DNA from: Halanaerobium sp.
Lineage (GTDB): Bacteria > Bacillota > Halanaerobiia > Halanaerobiales > Halanaerobiaceae
NCBI GenBank assembly: GCA_018399955.1
Contig: JAGYNO010000010.1
Coordinates: 1-35,970 of the forward strand
Direction: 5' to 3'
DNA: 35,970 nt
Positions 18,081 through 35,131 of this stretch are shown here, piece by piece (position 1 is the stretch's first letter; every line of letters starts with the position of its first letter). The position numbers and the translations under genes were made by a program. The notes beneath the pieces are model-generated. The model worked only from the letters and a program-made list of their open reading frames with translations. It searched no databases and had not been told where the DNA came from.

Positions 18081-19219
18081 TTTTTAATTACCTCCACTGC
18101 CATCTGTCTGGCTTCACTGTCTGCAGTAAAAATCTCTTCAAGTTCAGGACGGCTGACATTCTTATGTTTATCCATAACTTCTGCAGTTACTTTATTTAGA
18201 GCAGTAAAAGGAATCTCACCTCTTAAAAAACTAAATACTGCTTCTTCATTTGCTGCATTTAATGCTGTAGGATAAGTTCCTCCTGATTCCCCGGCCTGAT
18301 ATGCCTGTTTTAAAGCTGGAAACTTACCCAGATCAGCTTTATAAAAATCAAGTGAAACAATTTCCTCAAGTTTTAGATCTTCTGCAGCTGTCTTTTTACG
18401 AAGCGGATAATTCAAACAATATTGAATTGGTACTTTCATATCTGCTGGACCCATTTCTGCGAGTATACTCCCATCTCGAACTCTAATCATCGAGTGAACT
18501 ATACTCTGAGGATGTATCAAAACATTAATATTTTTGTAATCAACATCAAATAACCAGTGAGCTTCTATAACTTCCAGTCCTTTATTCATTAAAGATGCAG
18601 AATCTATAGTAATTTTACTGCCCATCTCCCAATTGGGATGATTTAGAGCATCAGCAACAGAAACATTTTCTAATTCAGATTTGGAATAATTGAAAAAGGG
18701 TCCACCTGATGCTGTAAGTATGATTTCACTTAATTCGCTTTTATGACCTTTTAAAAGCTGGAAAATAGCATTATGTTCACTATCCAGTGGTAAAATTTTA
18801 CAGTTATTTTCAGCAGCTTTTCCCATTAGAATTGATCCACCACTGACCAGACTTTCTTTATTTGCCAGGGCAATATCATTGTTTGATTCTGCAGCTTTAA
18901 TAGAAGGCTCTAAACCTGCAAAACCAACCAAAGCATTAACTAATAGATCAACATCTTCCGCTGCAGCAGAAATTAAATTATTTCTACCAATTAACAATTC
19001 TGTATCAATGTTTTGTAATCTATTTTTTAATTTATGACCTGCTGCTTCATCAACAACTACAGCATATTCAGGTCTGTATTTTAAAATCTGTTCATAAAGC
19101 AGATCTATATTTTTATTAGCAGTTAAAATTTTAAGATTCCAATCACCCAAAAAATCTATGACTTCTAAAGTTTGAGTTCCAACTGATCCTGTTGAACCAA
19201 GTACGGTCATCTCTTTCAT
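18071..19219 (-). CDS. dxr: 1-deoxy-D-xylulose 5-phosphate reductoisomerase
   Basis: Second MEP-pathway enzyme: NADPH- and metal-dependent conversion of DXP to MEP. Seen: NADPH-binding GSTGSVGTQTLEVI at the N-terminus, NALVGFAGLEP, ANKESLVSGG, metal site LDSEHNAIFQ, LTASGGPF, the flexible-loop region HPNWEMGSKITIDSASLMNKGLEVIEAHWLF, and HPQSIVHSM. The 382 residues are typical. ATG follows GAGGTG. The 97-nt gap upstream holds the 41-bp palindrome. I cannot tell whether dxr is transcribed only by read-through from the uppS-cdsA-permease genes. Confidence 0.97.
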   Translation of the reverse strand: MKEMTVLGSTGSVGTQTLEVIDFLGDWNLKILTANKNIDLLYEQILKYRPEYAVVVDEAAGHKLKNRLQNIDTELLIGRNNLISAAAEDVDLLVNALVGFAGLEPSIKAAESNNDIALANKESLVSGGSILMGKAAENNCKILPLDSEHNAIFQLLKGHKSELSEIILTASGGPFFNYSKSELENVSVADALNHPNWEMGSKITIDSASLMNKGLEVIEAHWLFDVDYKNINVLIHPQSIVHSMIRVRDGSILAEMGPADMKVPIQYCLNYPLRKKTAAEDLKLEEIVSLDFYKADLGKFPALKQAYQAGESGGTYPTALNAANEEAVFSFLRGEIPFTALNKVTAEVMDKHKNVSRPELEEIFTADSEARQMAVEVIKKCY

Positions 19220-19257: not shown

Positions 19258-19298
19258 TGTCGATATTTATTGGTACCTGGTACCAATAAATATCGACA
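19258..19298. repeat. Perfect 41-bp palindrome between permease gene and dxr
   Basis: Two 20-bp arms (19258-19277 and 19279-19298) are exact reverse complements around a single T at 19278. The centre reads GGTACC-T-GGTACC and the outer part is AT-rich with TCGA ends. There is no run of T directly after it on either strand, so it is not a standard intrinsic terminator. It may be a dispersed palindromic element, a cruciform site, an RNA-processing hairpin or a protein-binding site; nothing here decides which. Confidence 0.9.
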
Positions 19299-19302
19299 AT
19301 AA

Positions 19303-19326
19303 AATCATTTAATCATTTAATCATTT
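19303..19326. repeat. Three tandem copies of an 8-bp unit (AATCATTT)
   Basis: Exact triple repeat at 19303-19310, 19311-19318 and 19319-19326, beginning 5 bp after the 41-bp palindrome. It overlaps the last two codons and stop of the permease gene, so one copy encodes the protein's C-terminus and stop. Possibly a replication-slippage product, or part of the same element as the palindrome. Confidence 0.85.
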
Positions 19327-20378
19327 ATATCAATTAATTCAGAATCAGCAATCGCTTTGATTAAAACCAAAAATGTAGGGCCAACTACAAAACCAATTGT
19401 ACCTAGGATCATATAACCCGCATATAAGGATATCATTGTAGCTAATGGATGTAAACCGAGATGTTCTCCCATTATTTTGCCCTCAGATGCAGAACGCACT
19501 ACTGACAAAGCAAGGTGCAGAATAAATAGAGAAAAAGCCTGACTAAGATTTCCATACATTATGGATATTATAATCCAGGGATAAAACAAAAGTGCAGGAC
19601 CGATAATCGGTATTAAATCCAAAACAGCTGCTGTAATACCAACAATAAGGGCATACTGGTTTCCAATTAAAGTTACCCCTATAGCTGAGATAAAACCAGT
19701 AATAGAAATTAAAATAATAAGTGCCCTAATATATCCAACCGCCGAAATATTCAGCTGACTAAATACATTTGCAATCTTCGGTTTTACTTCTTCTGGAAAA
19801 ATATTAACCAAAAACTCCTTTATTTTTTCCCGGTCTCTGCTGATAAAAAACGCAGCTATAAAAGATATGAATAATATCATAAATACTCTCGGCAATTTAC
19901 TCAATAACTCTAAAATAGTATTAATAAAAGATATAACAGAATTTCTGATTCCATTATAGAGCATCTGCAAGTTATTATTAATAGAATCTTTTATGGCATC
20001 AGATATTTCCCAATTAGCAATAAACTGTTCAAATTCTTCATTCTGCTCGGCCAACCACTGGATTTGTGTATCAATTGTTCTGTAATCCGGCAGATTTCGG
20101 AGCAGACGATTTAATTCCAGATAAATTTGAGCACCACCAAAAAATATAAAGGTGATTAAAATAATTAAGACTAGAAATAAAACTATAATAACAGAAAAAC
20201 CCCTATGAAGAGGAATCTTCTTATCCAGAAAATCAACTATAGGATTGATTAGACTTGCGATTACCGCTGCTATTATAAAAGGAGTAAAATATAAAAAAAA
20301 GTGTTTTAAAAATAATAAACTGAAGAGCAAAAAGATGAACATTAACAGATATTTTATATACCATTTTCTAACTTCCAT
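19317..20378 (-). CDS. AI-2E family membrane permease, YtvI-like
   Basis: Multi-pass inner-membrane protein (353 residues) of the AI-2E/PerM superfamily. Seen: two or three N-terminal hydrophobic helices (residues about 9-90), a central soluble amphipathic segment (about 95-160), and further helices. The conserved C-terminal signature is near 300 (EGKIMGEHLGLHPLATMISLYAGYMILGTIGFVVGP). This resembles YtvI, a sporulation-associated branch, more than the AI-2 exporter TqsA, but the substrate cannot be read from sequence. It starts at the base after the cdsA stop, with a GGTGG ribosome site inside cdsA. Its place between cdsA and dxr is not part of the Bacillus order. Confidence 0.8.
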   Translation of the reverse strand: MEVRKWYIKYLLMFIFLLFSLLFLKHFFLYFTPFIIAAVIASLINPIVDFLDKKIPLHRGFSVIIVLFLVLIILITFIFFGGAQIYLELNRLLRNLPDYRTIDTQIQWLAEQNEEFEQFIANWEISDAIKDSINNNLQMLYNGIRNSVISFINTILELLSKLPRVFMILFISFIAAFFISRDREKIKEFLVNIFPEEVKPKIANVFSQLNISAVGYIRALIILISITGFISAIGVTLIGNQYALIVGITAAVLDLIPIIGPALLFYPWIIISIMYGNLSQAFSLFILHLALSVVRSASEGKIMGEHLGLHPLATMISLYAGYMILGTIGFVVGPTFLVLIKAIADSELIDIND

Positions 20379-34381: not shown

Positions 34382-35053
34382 ATGTATATAATTATTGCAG
34401 GTGGTGGAATTGCAGGAAGTAATTTAACAAAAAATCTTGTTGAAAAACACGATGTTATAGTAATTGAAAAAGAACAGAGTACTGCTGAAAAAATTTACAG
34501 CCGTTATGGAGCTGTAACTGTATTAGGAAATGCTACAACAATAGATGTTTTAAAAGAAGCAGGTATTGAAAAATGTGATATTGCAATAGCTGTAATGAGA
34601 GATGATGCTGATAATCTATCTTTTTCTCTCCTGGCAAAAAACTTTGGAGTAGAAAAAATACTCGTCAGAATGAGGGAGCCTGAATACGAAAGTGCCTATA
34701 AAATGGCAGGAGCAACAAATATTGCAGCAACTATGGAATTAATAGTTGATAAATTTATAACCGATATTGAAGAACCTGATGTAAGGAAAGTTGCATCTCT
34801 TGGTGATGGAAAGGCAGAAGTATCTATATTAACCATTCCACCAGAATCTAGAATATCCGGTATGAAAATTTCTGAAATTGTTAGTCAAGAAAAATTTCCT
34901 GATGGTACGGTTATTGCCGGTATTTATGATAAAAAAAGAGATCGTTTTATAGTTCCTAGAGGAAATAGAGAAATATTTGCAGGAAATCAGGTTTTCCTAG
35001 TTGCATCTAAAGAAGATATGGAAAGAGCAGCTAACTTTTTATTAAATAAATAA
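34382..35053 (+). CDS. trkA: TrkA/KtrA-type RCK regulatory subunit of potassium uptake
   Basis: Cytoplasmic gating ring that binds nucleotides and controls TrkH. A single RCK unit: Rossmann N-domain with GGGIAGSNL (residues 7-15) and the acidic end of strand 2 (VIVIEKE), VLGNATTIDVLKEAGIEKCDIAIAVMRDD, then a TrkA_C domain from about 135 to 223 (ISGMKISEI, GNQVFLVASKEDME). At 223 residues it has the KtrA single-copy size, not the roughly 450-residue duplicated TrkA of E. coli. ATG follows GGGGG. An 86-nt gap to trkH without a clear promoter or terminator suggests one transcript. Confidence 0.93.
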   Translation: MYIIIAGGGIAGSNLTKNLVEKHDVIVIEKEQSTAEKIYSRYGAVTVLGNATTIDVLKEAGIEKCDIAIAVMRDDADNLSFSLLAKNFGVEKILVRMREPEYESAYKMAGATNIAATMELIVDKFITDIEEPDVRKVASLGDGKAEVSILTIPPESRISGMKISEIVSQEKFPDGTVIAGIYDKKRDRFIVPRGNREIFAGNQVFLVASKEDMERAANFLLNK

Positions 35054-35060
35054 TGATCAA

Positions 35061-35089
35061 AAAAGACTCCATATAATATGGAGTCTTTT
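35061..35089. terminator. Bidirectional terminator between trkA and the SIMPL gene
   Basis: Perfect 13-bp arms (35061-35073 and 35077-35089) with a 3-nt loop. The arms begin with an A-run and end with a T-run, so it can work for trkA on plus and for the converging gene on minus. Confidence 0.9.
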
Positions 35090-35131
35090 CTAATCTAAAA
35101 TATAATTATATCTATTCTTATAAAATCTAGA

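Follow-up and report, generated by a model that had tools for sequence, protein, structure and literature searches.

The sequence analysed here, called the window throughout, is a 35,970-nucleotide stretch of a Halanaerobium sp. contig (JAGYNO010000010.1). On its minus strand a gene for an AI-2E-type transporter, a permease (19317–20378), is followed by dxr, which starts at 19219. Between the two genes lies a perfect palindrome of 41 bp with a doubled GGTACC core. It begins 18 bp beyond the permease stop and ends at a distance of 38 bp from the dxr start. Its position and its 20 base pairs around a single central base (T, 19278) agree with what a first-pass annotation of this DNA had described. 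The two arms (19258–19277 and 19279–19298) are 20 nt each and 100% complementary, and of the 13 pairs of inverted repeats that the listing gives for the window, this one ranks first and is the only perfect pair. From base composition, 2.1e-7 such structures are expected by chance in the window for 20 pairs around a 1-nt centre, and 4.5e-6 for 20 pairs around any centre of 0–20 nt, which bears out the earlier view that the palindrome is far beyond chance. The 8-bp tandem repeat that adjoins the palindrome (Table 1) may be related to its insertion. Elsewhere in the window, at 35055–35095, an inverted repeat with 20-nt arms (90% complementary), a 1-nt centre and A-/T-rich ends has the look of a terminator that follows the gene whose end is at 35053.

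Table 1 Features of the palindrome and its immediate surroundings in the window.
Feature	Position	Strand	Basis or remark
Palindromic element, one-core form	19258..19298	.	Inverted-repeat listing and DNA folding
Core GGTACC-T-GGTACC	19272..19284	.	Sole GTACCNGGTAC within the window; the host assembly contains 31
Outer arm, dxr side, TGTCGATATTTATT	19258..19271	+	Arm, core and 4 bases (31 bp) identical to copy L106 of G006
Outer arm, permease side	19285..19298	-	Exact reverse complement of the dxr-side arm
8-bp tandem repeat AATCATTT, 4.4 copies	19303..19338	.	Adjoins the palindrome, overlaps the permease stop codon

Folded as DNA, the 41-mer forms one hairpin of -17.9 kcal/mol, and none of 200 shuffled sequences is equally stable. 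The minus strand folded as RNA together with its flanks gives a z of -4.5. The G+C-rich hairpin followed by a T-run that marks an intrinsic terminator is not found here, and the terminator scan of the window has no entry at the site, in line with the earlier remark that a terminator is not the obvious reading. An Rfam search returned seven matches up to E = 1, of miRNA or lncRNA type; every one of them stays under its gathering score, and the reading as a known RNA family was rejected.

The palindrome is not unique: the host assembly (G000; 154 contigs, 75.88% complete) contains 31 exact copies of the core GTACCNGGTAC. The core pattern of the family reads GTACC-N-GGTAC. Exact GTACCNGGTAC was counted against a reversed-pattern control in 38 genomes of the order, the comparison genomes being partly drafts. 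The other 11 Halanaerobium genomes contain 118, 106, 46, 43, 36, 35, 11, 10, 6, 1 and 0 cores; with the host included, 10 of the 12 genomes of the genus hold 6–118, where the control yields 0–2. Two other genera of the same taxonomic family have 62 (G013) and 1 (G012), and G014, which belongs to another family, has 10. The remaining 23 genomes of the order contain 0–4 each, as does the control. The check that had been proposed for the 20-mer arm came out the same way: with up to three mismatches the host assembly has 12 occurrences, a number that includes both arms of the window copy, and none of the reversed pattern. At the same tolerance TTGGTACCWGGTACCAA is present at 30 places. A scan of bacterial contigs for the exact 19-mer pattern, which may have omitted records near the host, returned eight stretches from unrelated taxa, about as many as chance would give on a rough estimate.

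By a rough tally based on open reading frames in the fetched stretches, most core sites lie between genes (host 25/28, G005 35/41, G006 25/33, G003 30/41, G013 10/12), and tandem gene pairs are their commonest setting. A short palindrome that is dispersed and mostly intergenic is what is known from REP and REPIN sequences. The palindrome belongs to a dispersed family, as the first-pass annotation had proposed among its options, and this repeat is specific to one clade, Halanaerobium with its near relatives. Exact-string searches of the open-access literature returned nothing for GGTACCTGGTACC or for three GTACC...AAA/TTT strings; shorter core strings gave, judged by title, none on bacterial repeats. 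Nothing there pairs 'halanaerobi' with 'tyrosine transposase', and among the matches listed for Halanaerobium with 'palindromic' none is on this repeat by title and start of abstract.

Does the palindrome belong to dxr? The gene is present in 12 of the 14 genomes of the taxonomic family, host included. At E 0.001 there is no match in G006 and G010, both nearly complete Halanaerobium genomes, where another reductase may stand in for it. The core is absent from the 400 nt 5' of dxr at all 11 orthologous loci. From the upstream stop to dxr the host has a gap of 97 nt. Nine others have one of 5–35 nt as determined by script, and G005 and G013 have about 28 and 5 nt as judged by eye, the script having taken another frame in these two. 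Because the palindrome is missing at every orthologous locus, it is no conserved regulator of dxr: a dxr-specific regulator or leader element is ruled out, the conservation upstream of dxr that had been suggested as a check is lacking, and the proposed RNase processing site of the operon is left unsupported. The palindrome has no conserved role at dxr, and its presence in this operon should not be taken as evidence for dxr regulation. Within this one permease-dxr transcript the hairpin may have a side effect.

A broader functional view is that of an RNA or DNA regulator, either a hairpin by which the permease-dxr transcript is made more stable, processed or attenuated, or the binding site of a dimeric protein, favoured by selection at numerous promoters or ends of genes. 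The stable RNA hairpin, the symmetric core and the mostly intergenic copies with their preference for tandem gene pairs would agree with it. We nevertheless regard it as very improbable in view of the 11 empty dxr loci, the lack of a terminator at the site and of an Rfam family above threshold, and copy numbers that, in a single genus, vary between 0 and 118.

Copies of the repeat occur in two forms. The one-core form, to which the window copy belongs, has a single core with outer arms. The two-core form consists of GTACCAGGTAC, about 14 nt and GTACCTGGTAC, and is a nested palindrome around a hairpin of 14–16 nt. Among the fetched stretches there are 18 such units in G005, 17 in G003, six in G013, three in the host (with 16-nt interiors) and one in G001. 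Many copies have arms or interiors of differing sequence and still keep their self-complementarity. This covariation can be quantified for 18 distinct 14-nt interiors from G003, G005 and G001, a set that leaves out six 15-nt interiors of G003 and G005, which pair more poorly from their ends, and the units of G013 and the host: at pairs 4–5, 33 of 36 cells are complementary, compared with a mean of 16.8 and a maximum of 28 in 5000 shuffles. The six two-core interiors of G013 are mostly unpaired.

In the host most copies are asymmetric outside the core, which makes the window copy an extreme member of the family. All 14 arm pairs are intact at four of the 31 host core sites, window included, and these four have four different arm sequences; of the three others, contig C1 holds two, at separate places, and C108 one. 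When the host arms are permuted, one in 10,000 permutations reaches four fully paired sites. The same copies bear on the possibility that the palindrome is an assembly artefact, for example a folded-back read, as one could suspect in a source assembly of 154 contigs that is 76% complete. Such an origin is extremely improbable, since the other fully paired host copies have different arms and the same core is present in independently assembled genomes, two of which are single contigs. In addition, the symmetry ends after 20 bp in the middle of a contig.

Two further observations concern the surroundings of the cores. G006 contains cores paired at a near-constant 63–65 bp (L101, L104, L108, L109, L113, L115, L117), and the interiors of these pairs are mostly unrelated. 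Copies L080, L087, L089, L092 and L093 of G005 and L156 of G003 adjoin short direct repeats in which some flanking sequence is duplicated along with GGTACC or GTACC, a pattern that resembles slippage or target duplication.

A connection to a transposase appears in the relatives. A search with Y1_Tnp (PF01797) gave 36 matches in 13 of the 14 genomes of the taxonomic family. By length and profile range, 14 of these were classed as RAYT-like, six as RAYT-A and eight as a type bracketed by cores; a protein search of the 38 genomes added a ninth gene of the latter type in G014, from another family. All nine loci have a core with at most two mismatches within 330 bp on both sides, and exact cores stand on both sides in five and on at least one side in seven. 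At the comparison Y1 loci, cores on both sides are found in 0 of 24 cases: 0/6 for RAYT-A, 0/4 for f4/f7 and 0/14 for the IS200 type, where 14 of 22 matches were taken, 8 were left out and one locus, at a contig start, is single-sided. Two RAYT-A loci have a core with two mismatches on one side. One-sided proximity by itself means little, as 626 of 4000 random 330-bp stretches from a core-enriched pool hold a core with up to two mismatches. Relatives of the host thus have copies to either side of a RAYT-like Y1 gene, as is expected of a RAYT-associated repeat (REPtron/TIRtron).

In seven of the eight genomes of the genus that carry it, the bracketed gene follows a uvrA-like end; the G006 gene lies elsewhere. 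Next comes uvrC directly in G007 and G008, whereas the other five have a different frame there. In G008 both uvr genes are named by NCBIfam, uvrC also by Pfam. Three core-flanked proteins exceed the cut-off of PF01797. For three that were compared with NCBIfam the sole model match is REP_Tyr_transpos, at 58.9–63 bits and so below its cut-off of 80. HUH-type and tyrosine motifs are visible in the alignment. A sequence search of the PDB returned one weak match only (E 0.53). In the tree six core-flanked proteins form a 98/97 group; those of G001, G006 and G014 stand beside RAYT-A and f4 proteins without resolved branching, and a single supported clade of core-flanked RAYT-like proteins was not obtained. 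Gene and core number do not run in parallel everywhere: G013 and G004 have 62 and 11 cores and no core-flanked RAYT-like gene, and G008 has the gene with only six cores.

The paralogues show features of their own. At the RAYT-A loci L202, L206, L208 and L209 a motif resembling the core, GYRCCGTGWAC, with TGTCGA nearby, is found about 130 nt 5' of the matched stretch and is possibly the repeat served by this paralogue. The f4 proteins at L197 and L198 are RAYT-like, 283–289 aa long with a long low-complexity tail, and occur without the palindrome.

In the host assembly neither a family search nor a protein search of all contigs detected a RAYT-like gene, in an assembly 75.88% complete, and tblastn (E up to 1) found no remnant in the fetched loci L001–L039, L235 and L236. 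In the host, uvrA is found on contig C110 (L239) and uvrC on C107 (L240). There is a palindrome copy after uvrA and one before uvrC, matching the arrangement of the two bracketing copies in G007 and G008. These copies beside the separated genes suggest that the host lineage once had a RAYT-like gene between uvrA and uvrC and lost it by rearrangement.

Taken together, the palindrome is probably a non-autonomous element of the REP/TIR type, spread in trans by a RAYT-like single-strand transposase of the HUH/Y1 class. Enzyme and repeat are associated by genomic position; binding, cutting and movement are inferred. The enzyme would bind the hairpin into which the DNA folds when it is exposed as a single strand, and would cut near the foot of this hairpin; a copy would then be joined into intergenic DNA. 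The one-core copy of the window may never have had an inner hairpin, or may have lost it when the two cores of a nested copy recombined or slipped. The simplest explanation for arms of such exact symmetry is hairpin-templated copying, which would have begun at the self-complementary core and rewritten one arm from the other, or selection to keep the substrate foldable, or both. Of the ideas put forward in the first-pass annotation, the remnant of a small mobile element comes close to this mechanism, because the same palindromes bracket the RAYT-like gene; the dispersed family stood as proposed and the RNase site of the operon found no support.

A rival proposal is that replication errors alone are at work: the core would drive template switching in the hairpin and slippage, both making and perfecting palindromes with no need of a transposase, and the bracketing of RAYT-like genes would be hitch-hiking. 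Arms and interiors that vary between copies and pair within them speak for it, and short direct duplications of flank plus GGTACC adjoin several copies, as does the 8-bp tandem repeat at the window copy. It leaves unexplained why sequence is shared at unrelated places, such as the dxr-side half and core of the window in a one-sided copy elsewhere in G006, and why cores stand on both sides of nine in nine RAYT-like loci and of none of the 24 others. On balance we consider it improbable.

A variant of the transposase mechanism is suggested by pairs of alleles. In G008 the site 5' of the RAYT-like gene carries a one-core allele, ATTGGTACC-G-GGTACAGAATAAATATTTCACA; at the same site in G002 the central G is replaced by a 26-nt hairpin, with nearly equal outer sequence (21/24 on the right side). 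At an orthologous copy shared by G005 and G003 (L094/L141) the right 45 nt are identical and the left match at 34/45, and seven of the 14 interior bases differ, with interiors that pair 7/7 and 6/7. Based on these two sites one could picture a hairpin cassette, in which fixed half-sites GTACC...GGTAC enclose a hairpin that the RAYT-like enzyme inserts, removes or swaps whole. The window would then be an emptied site, a reading that we find unlikely.

Among known systems, the Halanaerobium repeat fits closest to the TIR repeats and TIRtrons and to the REP/REPIN systems. TIRtrons, as presented by Di Nocera et al. 2013 (PMC3733652), are RAYT-like (TIRYT) genes between inverted repeats without a GTAG tag; a GGGGWSAS motif is reported there for some TIRs. 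Shared features are a RAYT-like gene with inverted, partly self-complementary repeats on both sides and the dispersal of these repeats as a family, single or paired. In contrast to them, the Halanaerobium family has nested palindromes with variable self-complementary interiors. That main text mentions neither Halanaerobium nor Firmicutes nor Clostridi.

Classical REPs bear a GTAG tag, as outlined in PMC8266576. With such REP/BIME/REPIN sequences and their RAYT (TnpA-REP), as these are portrayed in PMC8266576, PMC8049555 and PMC3116915, our family shares short dispersed intergenic palindromes in inverted pairs, and a gene kept vertically at one place in most genomes beside repeat copies. It differs in that its core is itself palindromic. 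GTAG or CTAC is absent from the 41-mer and 30 bp on each side, and is found within 36 nt of the core at 8 of 28 host sites against 1367 of 5000 random ones, that is, without enrichment; the element is therefore not classed as a GTAG REP. The tag of CGTC-tagged REPs is likewise absent from the element with its flanks and from all 28 host sites. With IS200/IS605 there is common ground in the Y1_Tnp domain (PF01797) and in hairpin recognition on single-stranded DNA, as described for these elements in PMC6006769, whereas the Halanaerobium element is geneless and none of the 14 examined IS200-type loci has cores on both sides.

Pairs of RAYT and repeat are best known from Proteobacteria, according to PMC3733652. 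The halophilic anaerobes studied here, Clostridia in the NCBI taxonomy, add a tag-less family of nested palindromes linked with a RAYT-like enzyme. How such domesticated transposases recognise and copy hairpins can be asked independently in this system, where hairpins that covary at orthologous sites provide a natural record.
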